Source of the DNA: Bacillota bacterium
GTDB lineage: Bacteria; Bacillota; Limnochordia; Darwinibacteriales; DTU012
Assembly: GCA_012837335.1 (NCBI GenBank)
Contig: DURM01000023.1
Location: 1-64,000 of the forward strand
Direction: 5' to 3'
DNA length: 64,000 nucleotides
A program made the position numbers and the translations under genes. Under the pieces are notes generated by a model that saw nothing but the letters and a program-made list of their open reading frames with translations, ran no database searches and was not told the origin of the DNA. Positions 3,812 to 10,542 of the stretch are shown one piece after another. Positions within the stretch are counted from its first letter, which is position 1, and each line of letters begins with the position of its first letter.

Positions 3812-6112
3812 TTACCGCTTAGGATTCCAGCCATCATCGCCTTTAAGGATATTTTCTACTGTATAGTGGCTCGCTTCGGCATCAGTCAGCTGTCTGCTCC
3901 ATTTTACCCGACTGTCTGGATTAGCTCCCGGTCCATAGCTGTTGTATTCCTCATAGCGGGCTGTCTCTTCGTTGCTGGGTTTGCCCCAATTATGCCATCC
4001 GGTCGGCTGTACTACCTCTGACATATAACAGTTGATGTACGCAGTGTGGCCATAAGGACGCCATGGTCTGCCCAACCACACACTGCCCGGATTGACATCT
4101 CCGATAATGCGCGAGTTAATGAAAACTAGCCCGAACTCTTTTTCAGGAGGAGTAGATGCTGCGGTAACGTATCCGCCGGTCTTTCTGACATTAACAATGT
4201 CGCACTCCTCAAACACCGCTGTTGCCGGACCATAAATAAAATCCACATCTCCTTCAATATGGCACCGGTAAAAGTATAATCTTCCTTGGGTGTTCGCAAA
4301 CACTGTGTCCTGGTGGGAAACAAACTTGCAGTTCGTAAATACCATCCGATCTCCCCTGAGATCCACAGCAAGAGCCTGACCTGTTCCAACAGGAGCCAAG
4401 TTGCTAAAAGTAATGTTCTCGGCTGTAAAGTCATCGCTGAGGATCGCTGTGCTTGCATTGGCAATGCGGTACTGAGCATCGGTGGAATATTGGACATATG
4501 GTGTTTCATTGAAATTTAGGATGGTCGTATCACGGTTTTCCCCGATAAAAGTGATCATATCCTTGTCAGCGGGGATAATCAGCTTTTCGTGGTAAAACCC
4601 TTCTTTAATATAAACAATTACCCGCTGATCATTAAAGCCGGGTATCGCATCAACCGCTGCCTGGACAGTAGGAAAATTACCTGAGCCATCCTGCGCAACG
4701 ACTAACTGCATCAGCCACCGCTCTCCTAGGTCCAGATTTGGCGTCGAAATAACATCCATTCCCTGCTCCGGAATACTGACCCTTACCTGCCCGGAAGCAT
4801 CAATGACCGCAGGTGCAGCGGGTCTTTCGTGCTGATTGAAATCAACATAGTATATCCCCCGATCCTGCGCCTTTAAGTCTGCATAAAACTCAATCTCGGC
4901 AGCACGCACTGCCGAAAGGTTATCTTCCCAATAACTGAGAGGCTTCATTCTAAAGTAAAGAGCCCTACTGTCCTCATCTCTTACCGCATAATCTGCTTCG
5001 CTTTCGATTTTATACTCCGCAGGAAAACCGATAACTGCGCGAATCAGCACATTTTCCCGATCGGTTACAGCGAAGTTTTCTACCTGAATTGGAATCCGAT
5101 TATCGGAAACATACTGGCTGAGAGGGTTATCCGCGATTACTGCGGCAATTTGATCAGCCAATTCCGGGTACCGCGTTGGGTCTCTTTTAACCAGCACGTC
5201 TCTGGCTGCCATCTTGATTAACGGTGATTCGTTCTCGCAAGCAATCAAATCCAGCAGTCTTGCAACTATCACCTGGTCAAGCACTCCAGAGCGTTCGATC
5301 GCTTTTAAAGCCGGTATCCGCATTCCTAAAAGCTGGTTCTGGTCAAAAGCAATCTCAGCTACCCGCGGCAGAGTTTTATTCGCATTTCTGCCAAGAGCGG
5401 TGGCCGCCAAATCCTGCCACTCCAAAGTAGGAAGGCGGGAAATGATTTCTTCGATTGTATCGTCGGTAAACGACATAATTCCCGGTGCAGCTTTTCCTGC
5501 TGCCACCCGACAGGCCCAGGCAAACCGAGCACTGCTTGAATGGGAGAGCAGCAGCAGATCGATTCCATACTCTCCTGCCGGTTCCCCAAAGGCTCCTAAT
5601 GCCTCAGCAGCAGCTGTTCTCACATCTTCATCCAAATCAAATAGTGCTTCGCCAAGCGTACTTAAAACCTCTGAATTTGCTATGCCGATTTTGGCTAAGC
5701 TGTGAATAGCGTTTACCCGGGTAAATGTATCTTCATCATTATTCACGGAAAACAGCAGCGCGGGTAATGCTCTCGGGCTCTTTATTCTAGCCAAGAACTT
5801 GGCAGCTACACCTCTTAACACCTTGGTTTCAGGATCCAAATCCCGCAGCACCTTCTCGATGGCGGTTATTGACGCATCACCTAAATCTTCCAATTTCTGC
5901 TCGGCATTTGCTCGGATCGTATTATCCGGTGAAATCAGCAGTTTGACATACTCTATGATTTCCTCATTATCAATAATCCCCGGGTTGCTTCCATCTAATC
6001 CGCTTTCGGGGTTGAAACCGGCTCCCAAAACGGTAAAACCTGCAGACACCAGAGACATGATAACAGTAAAAAACACCAGCAAAGATCTCGCAATCTGACT
6101 TTGTTTACCCAT
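3812..6112 (-). CDS. Secreted pectin methylesterase with N-terminal HEAT repeats (CE8)
   Basis: The product (766 residues) removes methyl esters from homogalacturonan outside the membrane, exposing it to pectate lyase. A signal peptide (about residues 1-32) is followed by a helical HEAT-repeat region (about 45-335), a linker with beta character (about 340-460), and a complete CE8 pectinesterase beta-helix (about 470-760). The catalytic residues are visible: Gln579 in GTGQA, Gln601 and Asp602 in HQDTVF, the nucleophile Asp624 in GDVDFIYG, and Arg682 with Trp684 in LGRPW. Typical CE8 enzymes are 300-400 residues, so half of this protein is an extra solenoid. The start ATG is set by GAGGAGG 8 bases upstream. 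It is the last gene of the locus and is separated from the pectate lyase gene by a hairpin and 230 bases, so it may also have its own promoter. Confidence 0.93.
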   Translation of the reverse strand: MGKQSQIARSLLVFFTVIMSLVSAGFTVLGAGFNPESGLDGSNPGIIDNEEIIEYVKLLISPDNTIRANAEQKLEDLGDASITAIEKVLRDLDPETKVLRGVAAKFLARIKSPRALPALLFSVNNDEDTFTRVNAIHSLAKIGIANSEVLSTLGEALFDLDEDVRTAAAEALGAFGEPAGEYGIDLLLLSHSSSARFAWACRVAAGKAAPGIMSFTDDTIEEIISRLPTLEWQDLAATALGRNANKTLPRVAEIAFDQNQLLGMRIPALKAIERSGVLDQVIVARLLDLIACENESPLIKMAARDVLVKRDPTRYPELADQIAAVIADNPLSQYVSDNRIPIQVENFAVTDRENVLIRAVIGFPAEYKIESEADYAVRDEDSRALYFRMKPLSYWEDNLSAVRAAEIEFYADLKAQDRGIYYVDFNQHERPAAPAVIDASGQVRVSIPEQGMDVISTPNLDLGERWLMQLVVAQDGSGNFPTVQAAVDAIPGFNDQRVIVYIKEGFYHEKLIIPADKDMITFIGENRDTTILNFNETPYVQYSTDAQYRIANASTAILSDDFTAENITFSNLAPVGTGQALAVDLRGDRMVFTNCKFVSHQDTVFANTQGRLYFYRCHIEGDVDFIYGPATAVFEECDIVNVRKTGGYVTAASTPPEKEFGLVFINSRIIGDVNPGSVWLGRPWRPYGHTAYINCYMSEVVQPTGWHNWGKPSNEETARYEEYNSYGPGANPDSRVKWSRQLTDAEASHYTVENILKGDDGWNPKR

Positions 6113-6297
6113 AATCGTCCTCCTCATGCCAAAAAGGCACATAGCTGTAAAGATGGTTAAATTATAATAAACCCAGGTTAATTATACACCCTACCCATTA
6201 ACGATTGCTACGCATATTCTTGCATGTTTAGAGAAATTCCACATATTTTTGCACACAAAGGTTTATTAAAAATGCTATCAAAATGTGGTCGAATGAA
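6113..6297 (-). promoter_or_regulatory. Upstream region of the pectin methylesterase gene
   Basis: This AT-rich stretch holds no gene. On the minus strand a TATAAT sits within TTATTATAATTT near 6160-6166, without a good -35 box. Two words seen upstream of the whole operon recur here on the same strand and in the same order: GATAGCATTTTT (6268-6279) and TGCGTAGC (6207-6214). This suggests a second regulated promoter using the same activator. The motif sharing is observed; the function is inferred. Confidence 0.45.
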
Positions 6298-6323
6298 AAT
6301 AAGCCCCAAATGAGGGACTTATT
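6298..6323 (-). terminator. Terminator-like hairpin after the pectate lyase gene
   Basis: Read on the minus strand, AATAAGTCCC pairs with GGGGCTTATT (one G-T pair) around a short loop and is followed by TTTTC. It could partly terminate or protect the operon mRNA before the methylesterase gene. Confidence 0.6.
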
Positions 6324-6342
6324 TTTCTATACAGCGGATCTC

Positions 6343-8949
6343 TTAGAGATCACTGATTAGCGGGTTAGTTCCATTTAAATACTCTTCTATATTAGTGTAA
6401 CCATCGCCATCAAGATCGGCAGCCTGATCTATTCCACCATTGGGATCAAAGCCATACTTGATAGCCCACCAGTTGGGAATTCCATCCATATCGCTGTCCA
6501 GAGGCATCCTGAAGCTTCTTAAAAATACCAAACCGCCGACATCGTCCTGAGAATCAATAATGCCTGTTCCTAAACCGGTAGTCTGTCCTCCATAAGCCGC
6601 GGTTCCGGTTCTAACTTCTTCGATAATCCGCTTGTCAATTGCATCGCGGCCCGGCAGTGAAGCACCGGCGTGTTTTAAGACCAGCTCAAATGCTTCCTCA
6701 GCACTGTGAGTTGTCACATGCGGAACCGGAAATTCTTCATCATGCTTTACGTCTTCGGCTCGGTTTACTCTCGGCTGTACTCCACCAGCCCAGTTATCAG
6801 CTGTAATAGCGGGATAGCCATCCACATAGTTATCCGCAATGTACCATTTGCCGCCATTGGAGATCTCAACTATACGATGATTTACACTGCCTCTATTGGT
6901 CCCGGGTCCGGGTTTATAATAGTTGGCAATCATATTGTGGTTGCCGCCCTCGCCGCCATACGTGCTGTTGAAGCCCCAGTTGTAGATTACATTGTTGCGC
7001 ATATCGGTAGCAGGCTGATTGGTATTTCTTTCTCCGTCAAACCGAGGAGTGCGGCTGGAATGGTGAGCCATCAAGTTGTGGTGGAAGGAAGAAAAACCTC
7101 CCCAGATTCCTCCATAGCCATGATTGCCCTTAACATGCACTGATCCCCGCAGACTTTCTGAGATAATTGACCACTGGACTGTCAGATTGTTGGTCAGGTA
7201 AAAACTAACGCATTCGTCCGTAGACCAGCTTGCGGAAATATGGTCCAGGATCACATTAGAAACACCTCTGCCGCCGATGGCATCAGCCTCATATCGGTTG
7301 TAATCGCCCATGCGGAACCGCAAGTACCTGATAATAACCTGATTAGTATTGATGTTAACCGGGGCACCGGCTACTGTGATTCCATCTCCGGGAGCTGTTT
7401 GGCCGGCAATGGTAATGTATGGGTTAATAATATCAAGAGAACTTGTAAGCATAATGTTTCCGGATACGGCAAAGACTACGGTTCTCGGTCCGGAAGCATT
7501 GACAGCTTCCCTTAAGCTGCCGGGACCGCTGTCTTTGAGATTAGTAACAATGTACACATCTCCGCCTCTGCCTCCTACAGTATATCTGCCATATCCTTCG
7601 GCAGTGGGAAAAGCAGGGGTTTGTTCGGCGTTATCATCTGCCATCACCAATCCACGTTCTGCTTTTACTTCTTTCCCGAGAGCGCTGAGCACACTAACGG
7701 CAAAGTCCTGAAGCAGCTGCGATTCATGATCTGTAATTTGATACAGAGTGTCAACTGCTGCTTCGGACTGCTCAGCTGCCTGGTAAACGATTGGGCTTAG
7801 TCTCCATAGAACATCCTCTTCAAATGACTCAACAGCACTTAGGAGATACAGCGCATCTTCTTCAAGTACCGCCTCGCAGTGTTCTAAATAGCGTGCAGCT
7901 GCCAGTTTTACTTGACTATCTGTTTCTTCATCTAACAGCGCATTAATGAAGAATTCGATCACTTCTGATTGATCGGGCTTAGTCTTTTCTAAAGCTAACG
8001 CAAGGAGTACCACGTCTTCTGCAGCTGCCCGAGGATTATTAATCATAGCTAAGATATCGCTAACTAGTGTTTCGTCATAATTGGTGAGTTCACCCAGCGC
8101 ATATATCGCCTGCTCCTTGAGAGTACCCGTGTGGTTTGCAGCAAGCTCCTTCAGCAGCCCGGAAATCTCCGGAGTATAAGATGCCATGCGGGGATACAAA
8201 CCGTCAATTATGGTCCAGAGATTATTCTGCAGCGCTTCACTCGGACTGGCAAATGCTTCGCGAAGCAGTCCAACCGGATCAGATGCTTTGTAAAGATTTG
8301 CGGAGATACCGGAAACAACACCATAGATATTGCGCTTATTGGCTAACTCATCGAAAAGCACTGGAATGATTTCATCGAAGCTGACCTTGAGAGCTGTAAT
8401 CGCCTGATTTGCTTTCCACGCCACCATTGGCTCAGCAGCCATCGAAACTGCTAATGCCCTAATAACTTCAGGATTGACTGCTTTAATTGCCCGCAGCGCA
8501 TCCACCGCCTGAGAACGCACGCCCGCATCTTCCCTGCGGTCCAAAACTACCTTTGCTATCTCATTAACAATTTCCTCTGCTTGTGGCCCTAAGGTATACG
8601 CAGCTTTGGCAGCTCTCGTCCTTGTGGTTAAATTCACATCACGCAGACCTTGAACAATGATGGGCAAACCACCTTCGCCAAGCTGCTCAGCGAAGACTAC
8701 TAAATCATAGCCGATAAAAGATGATTCACTCTGATTGCGCTGCATCTGTTTAACCAAGAGAGGAACAGCAGCTTCACCATAACTGTTCAGCACTGCCAGT
8801 GCTTCACGTTTAACATTGAGATCGCCGCTGGCCAAGTCAGACACAGCCTCTAGAATAATGCTTTCATCCTCTGAATTCAAACCAGCCGCACAAGCTGTGA
8901 GGCCAAGAGCCAAGCAGATTATTAGAGTTAAAATTACCAGTTTCCGCAT
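6343..8949 (-). CDS. HEAT-repeat pectate lyase lipoprotein (PL1-like)
   Basis: The product (868 residues) should cleave polygalacturonate by beta-elimination at the outer face of the membrane. The N-terminus is a lipoprotein signal ending in LTAC, with the lipidated Cys at residue 20. Residues about 30-425 are HEAT-type helical repeats. A pectate-lyase beta-helix follows (about 445-800), with the family pattern FPTAEGYGRYTVGGRGG, VVFAVSG, PYITIAGQTAPG, IIRYLRFR and DHISASWS. The C-terminus has two calcium-binding-like loops, DSDMDGIPNWW (about 818-828) and DLDGDGYTNIEEY (about 845-857), similar to dockerin or thrombospondin-3 calcium loops. The start is set by AAGGAGG before ATG 8949. It shares the HEAT architecture with the adjacent methylesterase, which suggests that both enzymes are assembled or anchored in the same way. 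Confidence 0.9.
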   Translation of the reverse strand: MRKLVILTLIICLALGLTACAAGLNSEDESIILEAVSDLASGDLNVKREALAVLNSYGEAAVPLLVKQMQRNQSESSFIGYDLVVFAEQLGEGGLPIIVQGLRDVNLTTRTRAAKAAYTLGPQAEEIVNEIAKVVLDRREDAGVRSQAVDALRAIKAVNPEVIRALAVSMAAEPMVAWKANQAITALKVSFDEIIPVLFDELANKRNIYGVVSGISANLYKASDPVGLLREAFASPSEALQNNLWTIIDGLYPRMASYTPEISGLLKELAANHTGTLKEQAIYALGELTNYDETLVSDILAMINNPRAAAEDVVLLALALEKTKPDQSEVIEFFINALLDEETDSQVKLAAARYLEHCEAVLEEDALYLLSAVESFEEDVLWRLSPIVYQAAEQSEAAVDTLYQITDHESQLLQDFAVSVLSALGKEVKAERGLVMADDNAEQTPAFPTAEGYGRYTVGGRGGDVYIVTNLKDSGPGSLREAVNASGPRTVVFAVSGNIMLTSSLDIINPYITIAGQTAPGDGITVAGAPVNINTNQVIIRYLRFRMGDYNRYEADAIGGRGVSNVILDHISASWSTDECVSFYLTNNLTVQWSIISESLRGSVHVKGNHGYGGIWGGFSSFHHNLMAHHSSRTPRFDGERNTNQPATDMRNNVIYNWGFNSTYGGEGGNHNMIANYYKPGPGTNRGSVNHRIVEISNGGKWYIADNYVDGYPAITADNWAGGVQPRVNRAEDVKHDEEFPVPHVTTHSAEEAFELVLKHAGASLPGRDAIDKRIIEEVRTGTAAYGGQTTGLGTGIIDSQDDVGGLVFLRSFRMPLDSDMDGIPNWWAIKYGFDPNGGIDQAADLDGDGYTNIEEYLNGTNPLISDL

Positions 8950-9018: not shown

Positions 9019-10542
9019 TCAGCACTTACTTACATCAAACCAGGCAAAATCAGCGTACCCAAGAGATCCTTCACCAGTCGTATTAGTGCTGAACAGACCG
9101 ACCTTTGAGCCAATCCAGCGTCCTTTAACGGCGTGGAGTTCATCCCCCAGCTTAACGTACTCTCGACCATCAAGGCTGTATGTGAAAGTGCATACTGCAG
9201 GCTCTTTTACTTCTACCCTTAAATAAACAGTATTGGTGTCTAAATCAACTGATGCAGTCAGCTGATCTTCATCTTGATCCTTATGGCCTACCCAGCGCTC
9301 AAGCGTCCAACCAGAACCGGATTTGCGGAGCGATAGATAGGAATATTTATCCCCGGTCACGATCAGTCCTGCCTGCTCACTCTCAAGCTGCGGCTGAAAT
9401 GTTAGCTTGGTGGTGGCCGCAAACTCGGGCGCTGGGAATTTTTGTGCGACAATATTCGGTACTTCCCACAGAGTCTTCCGCTCACCGGGAATGTTCTGGG
9501 GAAACAGACGCAGGCCATGTTTGCCCAAACTGTACCAGCTGTCTTTATGGTTGGCAAACCACTGCCACTGGAGACCCAGCTTGTCCTGATCAAACTGGTC
9601 CGATGTGGGAATAGCTGCAATTGGATACTCCCTGCCCACATTCGGCTTTTTATAGCGTAGTACCGGTTCTTCGTTATCCCCCATGATCGGCCAGTCGTCG
9701 ATCCATGCAACCGGCTGCAGGTGAACAATCCGTCCATAGGCGTTCCGGTCCTGAAAGTGGATGAACCAGGATTCTCCAGTTTGGGTCTCTACCCAGCCGC
9801 CTTGGTGCGGTCCGTTGATAGGAGTGCTGCCCTGCCGCAGAACGATCCGGTCTTCGTATGGTCCCCAAACATTTTTCGAGCGGAGCACAGTCTGCCAGCC
9901 ATTGGTTACTCCGCCACCGGGAGCCATAATGTAATAGTAGCCATTGCGCTTGTACATTTTCGGACCTTCGAGGGTCGGATGATCTACAGTCCCATCGAAG
10001 ATAATCTTGCCTTCATCTAAAACGCGGCTGCCGTCGGGAGCCATCTTGTGTAAAATCAGCTTGCTTTTAATACCGCAGCGGCTGGCAGCAAAGGCATGGA
10101 CCAAATAAGCCTGACCATCATCATCCCAGAAGGGGCAGGGATCAATCCAGCCTTTCCCCGGTTTAACGCAGAACAGGGGTGACCACTCGCCGAAAGGATC
10201 TTCGGTGGTAGTCATGTAGATTCCCTCATCAGGCAGACCCACGCAGATCCAAAACTTGCCAGCATGGTAGCGGATAGATGGTGCCCAGATTCCGCAGCCG
10301 TGAAGCGGTTTATCATATCCGGGAAGGTCAACATTTTTAATGGCGTAATTTACCAGCTGCCAGTTGACCAGGTCTTTAGAATGAAGAATTGGCAGACCCG
10401 GAGTGCACTGAAAACTGGAAGCAGTCATAAAGTAATCATCTCCAACGCGGATCACGTCCGGATCAGAATAGTCAAGATGCAAAATGGGGTTGATATAGGT
10501 TCCATCTCCTTGATCTGATACCCATACACTGTTTTTAGACAT
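9019..10542 (-). CDS. GH43 glycoside hydrolase (arabinofuranosidase/xylosidase type)
   Basis: The product (507 residues) has no signal peptide, so it should act in the cytoplasm on imported oligosaccharides, removing arabinose or xylose side groups. The N-terminal five-bladed propeller (about 1-300) has the three GH43 acidic residues: Asp27 in YSDPDVIRV (general base), Asp134 in GWIDPCPFWDD (pKa modulator) and Glu192 in HPTLEGPKMY (general acid). The C-terminal 200 residues form the beta-sandwich typical of GH43 subgroups with a concanavalin-like domain. In this pectin locus the likely substrates are arabinan or arabinogalactan side chains of rhamnogalacturonan I. Substrate choice between arabinose, xylose and galactose cannot be read from sequence alone. 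GGAGG lies a few bases before the ATG, and 22 bases separate it from the GH28 stop. Confidence 0.88.
   Translation of the reverse strand: MSKNSVWVSDQGDGTYINPILHLDYSDPDVIRVGDDYFMTASSFQCTPGLPILHSKDLVNWQLVNYAIKNVDLPGYDKPLHGCGIWAPSIRYHAGKFWICVGLPDEGIYMTTTEDPFGEWSPLFCVKPGKGWIDPCPFWDDDGQAYLVHAFAASRCGIKSKLILHKMAPDGSRVLDEGKIIFDGTVDHPTLEGPKMYKRNGYYYIMAPGGGVTNGWQTVLRSKNVWGPYEDRIVLRQGSTPINGPHQGGWVETQTGESWFIHFQDRNAYGRIVHLQPVAWIDDWPIMGDNEEPVLRYKKPNVGREYPIAAIPTSDQFDQDKLGLQWQWFANHKDSWYSLGKHGLRLFPQNIPGERKTLWEVPNIVAQKFPAPEFAATTKLTFQPQLESEQAGLIVTGDKYSYLSLRKSGSGWTLERWVGHKDQDEDQLTASVDLDTNTVYLRVEVKEPAVCTFTYSLDGREYVKLGDELHAVKGRWIGSKVGLFSTNTTGEGSLGYADFAWFDVSKC

Follow-up and report, generated by a model that had tools for sequence, protein, structure and literature searches.

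HEAT-repeat solenoids on predicted exported pectinases of a Bacillota bacterium, and their fusion in congeners

Results

The window analysed here is a stretch of 64,000 nucleotides from the genome of a Bacillota bacterium. Two adjacent genes on its minus strand encode a predicted pectate lyase (6343..8949, 868 aa from the ATG at 8949) and a predicted CE8 pectin methylesterase (3812..6109, 765 aa from the ATG at 6109), both with HEAT repeats. The pair forms the end of a pectin locus with GH43, GH28 and PcRGLX-type enzymes, an ABC transporter and a DUF5696 protein. The gene past the pair, on the plus strand, encodes what we take from its sequence to be an AraC-type regulator. The two genes are 233 bp apart. 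A hairpin with a 12 bp stem is located between them (6298..6325, minus strand; RNA folding, minimum free energy -15.6 kcal/mol, z -2.5). It was not flagged by a consensus terminator scan, and is likely a terminator.

All parts of the two genes are given on the minus strand. The lyase begins with a signal sequence (8890..8949; regular expression and hydropathy) containing the lipobox LTAC with Cys20, through which the lyase of the window species is probably lipid-anchored. The HEAT solenoid of about 22 helices follows (residues 26–423, 7681..8874), and then the catalytic domain (residues 446–840, 6430..7614), which is PL1/PelZ-like according to NCBIfam and to its likeness to three other lyases of the genome. 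A TSP3-type, calcium-binding-like repeat is located at the C-terminus (residues 845–864, 6358..6417; PF18884 at 19.1 bits, below the cut-off of 25). The esterase has a signal sequence with no lipobox (6020..6109; sequence and hydropathy), a HEAT solenoid of 18 helices (residues 48–327, 5129..5968), a beta-rich linker domain at the HEAT/CE8 junction (residues 338–455, 4745..5098; AlphaFold2 secondary structure) and the CE8 catalytic beta-helix (residues 469–758, 3836..4705).

According to the Pfam scan, the esterase matches HEAT_2 with an E value of 8e-14 (52.1 bits against a cut-off of 27.7), and the HEAT_PBS and HEAT models are likewise above their cut-offs. The lyase matches HEAT_2 at 1e-6 and 29.3 bits, barely above the same cut-off. 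When profiles of the HEAT parts were searched against the PDB, alphaRep and other HEAT/ARM chains were retrieved, at 9e-48 for the esterase and 5e-41 for the lyase. AlphaFold2 gave an all-helical model for lyase residues 20–445 (pLDDT 91.5, pTM 0.81). For esterase residues 45–468, the model shows helices at about 48–327 and a beta domain C-terminal to them (pLDDT 81, pTM 0.51). The best Foldseek matches of both predicted solenoids are alphaRep, armadillo and HEAT proteins. Both arms thus combine a curated HEAT profile match with antiparallel helix pairs in a predicted superhelix. Profiles and models confirm the predicted N-terminal HEAT solenoid after the signal sequence on both enzymes, as the preliminary description had proposed from the sequence; the limits that it gave (45–335 in the esterase and 30–425 in the lyase) agree with the modelled helices.

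The catalytic domains were also identified. The esterase matches Pectinesterase PF01095 at 469–758 (E 1.7e-67), and Q578, Q600-D601, D623, R681 and W683 are invariant in the CE8 alignment. We presume from knowledge of the family that Q578, Q600, D601, D623 and R681 play the catalytic Gln/Asp/Asp/Arg roles. With the profile and these residues, the protein is predicted to be a methylesterase. Residues 442–660 of the lyase match NCBIfam PelZ NF041900 (E 1.3e-40). As the score of 139.6 bits is below the equivalog cut-off of 840, the name PelZ was rejected and the enzyme is called PL1-like. Pectate_lyase_4 was not reported for it in the Pfam scan.

The HEAT inventory of the window genome (2.4 Mb, 98% complete) was made by HEAT_2 profile search. 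Eleven ORFs matched, and nine of them encode enzymes that are predicted to be exported and to degrade polysaccharides. They fall into five kinds, with one CE8, three PL1-like lyases, three PL11, one PL4 and one GH16. Their common layout is an N-terminal hydrophobic signal sequence, then HEAT, then the catalytic domain. The two HEAT-pectate lyases besides that of the window have 960 and 863 aa, and the three HEAT-PL11 rhamnogalacturonan lyases are encoded in tandem. The other two ORFs are QueG, which normally has HEAT repeats, and an ECF sigma factor with a long HEAT tail (L013:3905-5890, plus strand); such a sigma factor also occurs in another genus of the family (L158 in G007). A HEAT-only scaffold protein is not among the matches. 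The genome also encodes exported pectinases with no HEAT, namely a PL1-like lyase (L019), a PL11 (L166) and a CE8 (L052). For the second CE8 (L050), a short HEAT-like N-terminus was considered; Pfam finds no HEAT in it, and it was left out of the count. Beside the HEAT-less pectate lyase lies an ORF of repeated 'FNPRTREGCD/IHAPARGAT' peptides (L019:626-1207, minus strand), probably a translated CRISPR array. Judged from these predictions, the HEAT arm is the main accessory module of the exported pectinases of this genome. The same accessory fold on enzymes of one polymer, described at first for the window pair, is therefore borne out genome-wide.

The same N-terminus was found on other CAZymes in related genomes. 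By hand count, 34 HEAT-CAZyme genes are present: nine in the window genome, six each in G002 and G004, four each in G003 and G008, two in G099, and one each in G005, G140 and G390. A scan of GTDB contigs for relatives of the CE8 enzyme gave 80 loci. Four, all of this family, align N-terminal of residue ~445, and in the other 76 the match is confined to the catalytic domain. Beyond the window family, 398 Bacillota genomes were searched. Full-length HEAT-PL11 enzymes were found in G099 and G140 (family f55), a HEAT-PL1 in G099 and a HEAT-GH16 in G390 (family f113). The arms of these enzymes are colinear with those of the window genome, with 30–32% identity over almost the entire module. PL11 lyases of other Bacillota families have no HEAT. 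One origin for HEAT-PL11 was considered and rejected, because the PL11 tree requires two or three gains or losses. BLAST matches were found in 164 of 515 pairs of HEAT arms from different enzyme families, and three HEAT-only control proteins match the arms about as often or more (18–28 of 39), so that BLAST likeness was not accepted as proof of a common ancestry of all arms. In terms of predicted domains, the architecture is present in at least three Bacillota families and is retained or re-gained over long times. According to the isolate names, the uncultured hosts apparently come from anaerobic digesters. In G004, an ORF of 1,010 aa up to the contig end (L062:4519-7551, minus strand) has HEAT between an N-terminal part and a C-terminal beta-helix.

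In three congeners of the window species, lyase and esterase are a single chain (1,598 aa in G004, 1,597 in G003 and 1,615 in G002). Its order is signal, HEAT1, lyase, TSP3, HEAT2, linker and CE8. The chain lacks the second signal sequence, and its HEAT2 begins right after the TSP3 repeat, at the exact domain boundary. HEAT2 thus links the lyase and CE8 domains. In G008, of the sister genus, the orthologues are on separate contigs and neither has its partner adjacent; identity with the window proteins is 57% for the lyase over residues 32–867 and 48% for the esterase. In lyase, esterase and PL11, the congeners are more similar to each other than to the window species. Between congeners, identity is about 50% in HEAT and about 80% in the catalytic domains, and the HEAT length is kept.

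The split genes of the window species are not a sequencing error, because 233 bp, a hairpin and a second signal sequence separate the coding parts. In the tree, the sister genus is the outgroup on a long branch, and the outlier position of the window species was taken from the gene identities. The simplest history suggested by these genomes would be that the genes were unlinked, then adjacent, then fused. Fusion is preferred to fission by parsimony alone, and the tree allows a later split in the window species. One gene in G002, G003 and G004 corresponds to separate genes in the window genome and in G008, which is the pattern of a 'Rosetta stone' gene fusion. Whichever the order of fusion and splitting, this pattern supports a functional coupling of methylesterase and lyase. 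In family f35 (L198, L199), a lyase and a CE8 are also adjacent, with no HEAT arm seen, and the lyase has other accessory domains. The coupling of these activities would therefore be independent of the arm.

Discussion

CE8 enzymes strip methyl esters from homogalacturonan, and pectate lyases then cut the resulting pectate. The coupling of the two enzymes fits this chemistry, because demethylation by CE8 yields the substrate of the lyase. We incline to the explanation that the HEAT module is a structural arm or tether on two exported pectinases, which would act in the order CE8, then lyase. The N-terminal HEAT solenoid would be the standard accessory module of an exported pectin-degrading system. 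As a long spring-like arm, it would hold the catalytic domain away from the N-terminal attachment and would keep consecutive activities close together. In the three congeners, HEAT2 literally joins the lyase and CE8 domains in one chain. The corresponding units of the window species are separate neighbours, the lyase probably on its lipid anchor, and any contact between them would be presumptive.

The kept arm length, together with the drift in sequence, fits a structural arm. Against the explanation, HEAT-less pectinases are present in the window genome and HEAT-less PL11 lyases elsewhere, and therefore the arm appears to be dispensable for catalysis. A conserved patch, which is expected if the arm has a specific partner, was also not found with five orthologues, a crude test. 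Conservation of the exposed positions is no higher on the concave side (inner helices) than on the convex side (outer helices). BLAST finds no similarity between the two window arms, and all HEAT modules are acidic (pI 4.3–5.4, net charge -7 to -34). Acidity, drift, the absence of a conserved face and a likeness across arms no greater than that to HEAT-only controls are easier to reconcile with a structural arm or spacer than with a dedicated docking site.

The preliminary description had proposed that the HEAT arms hold the two enzymes together in a surface complex. Physical joining is indeed found in the three congeners, by fusion through the second arm. The non-covalent form of the proposal, in which HEAT arms would attach to one another or to a shared HEAT protein and so replace a cohesin–dockerin scaffold, is unlikely in the window species. 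One fold is present on nine enzymes of this genome, and HEAT domains are established as usually binding proteins. Moreover, an exported HEAT-only protein of 400 aa is encoded just downstream of a HEAT-pectate lyase in the sister genus (L160:2596-3798, plus strand) and resembles the arm of that lyase (E 1e-34), and a second one, of 638 aa with a lipobox-like LTAC, is encoded in G140 of f55 (L177:1307-3223, plus strand). Against such a complex, the HEAT_2 matches of the window genome include no such HEAT-only protein, the window arms are dissimilar and a hairpin lies between their genes. The HEAT similarity across enzymes is no higher than that to HEAT-only controls, the concave face is not conserved, and the pair is joined covalently instead in three congeners. 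Binding of polysaccharide by the arm, in the manner of a CBM, is very improbable. It is established that CAZymes often carry CBMs as their N-terminal accessory modules, and the HEAT modules occur on enzymes of related substrates; however, their acidity is unfavourable for polyanionic pectin, they are also found on GH16, a beta-glucanase family, and they have no conserved set of surface aromatics.

The arm might also anchor the enzymes to a shared receptor of the envelope (outer membrane, S-layer or a periplasmic protein), which would bring them to one place with no mutual contact. With one receptor for all, the recurrence of the fold across many enzymes would be accounted for. The lipobox of the window lyase and the presence of an SLH coiled-coil protein fit this, and Omp85/BamA next to a TamB-like protein speaks for an envelope of two membranes. 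However, a candidate receptor is lacking, the lipobox is missing in the congeners and in the orthologue of the sister genus, and the HEAT sequence drifts fast. We consider this explanation quite unlikely. The envelope genes also bear on the location. Two Omp85/BamA genes and a protein of 1,022 aa, which we take to be TamB-like, are located at L195:1-6322 (minus strand), and indicate an outer membrane in a Bacillota genome. The cell probably has two membranes. As BamA is encoded, the site of the enzymes may be periplasmic rather than the surface assumed at first; the HEAT enzymes may stay in the periplasm, sit on the outer membrane or be released, and the lipobox of the lyase points to a membrane.

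A structural arm on the two pectinases thus remains the explanation to which we incline. On a wider scale, several uncultured anaerobic Bacillota lineages could use HEAT solenoids to dock or tether exported CAZymes in general. Such an organization would resemble a cellulosome but would be built on alpha-solenoids in place of cohesin–dockerin pairs, possibly with HEAT-only scaffold parts. We consider this reading, too, to be unlikely. If the arm tethers or docks, cells would have a second means of organizing the enzymes that act on one polymer, and the arm would be a module ready for use in designed enzyme assemblies. As a test of this, the fused enzymes and their split orthologues are a natural pair. 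If the arm only spaces or stabilizes, the enzymes would still be a recognizable class, now divided by annotation pipelines between the labels 'HEAT protein' and 'pectate lyase'. No published description of the HEAT-CAZyme design was found in the open-access literature, subscription journals being outside the scope of the search. HEAT-armed pectinases are a real enzyme design, so far apparently undescribed.

Comparison with known systems

To our knowledge, the usual accessory modules of CAZymes (CBM, dockerin, SLH and Fn3) do not include HEAT repeats. The cellulosome shares with the enzymes described here the idea of keeping the enzymes of one substrate together. The HEAT enzymes differ from it in having no dockerin in the Pfam scans, and the genome has no scaffoldin-like array of several cohesins. 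Thus, the contrast with cohesin–dockerin systems drawn in the preliminary description stands for the HEAT enzymes themselves, but not for the whole genome, in which one cohesin domain was found on a protein of 680 aa with CARDB repeats. This protein is encoded between a TonB-like proline-rich protein and the SLH coiled-coil protein (L194:7015-9057 and 9075-10424, plus strand).

HEAT proteins (HEAT_2, HEAT_PBS; alphaRep designs and the bilin lyases CpcE/F) have the same fold and sequence pattern as the window arms. Bacterial HEAT proteins known to us are mostly intracellular, whereas the window arms are predicted to be exported and are fused to polysaccharide-degrading enzymes. The window esterase has the catalytic domain and family motifs of CE8 (PF01095; PDB 1gq8, 1xg2 and 2ntb), and adds a HEAT solenoid of 300 residues and a beta linker in front. 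The catalytic domain and the C-terminal TSP3-type repeat of the window lyase are common to the PelZ/PL1-like pectate lyases (NF041900), but the lyase has a HEAT arm of 420 residues, scores far below the equivalog cut-off and is joined to CE8 in three congeners. CelA of Caldicellulosiruptor bescii is a multi-catalytic CAZyme with the order GH9-CBM-GH48 (PMC6892212). Like CelA, the fused enzyme of the congeners pairs complementary catalytic domains within a single exported chain. In CelA these domains are linked by CBMs, whereas in the fused enzyme they are linked by a HEAT solenoid, and the two activities are those of a methylesterase and a lyase.
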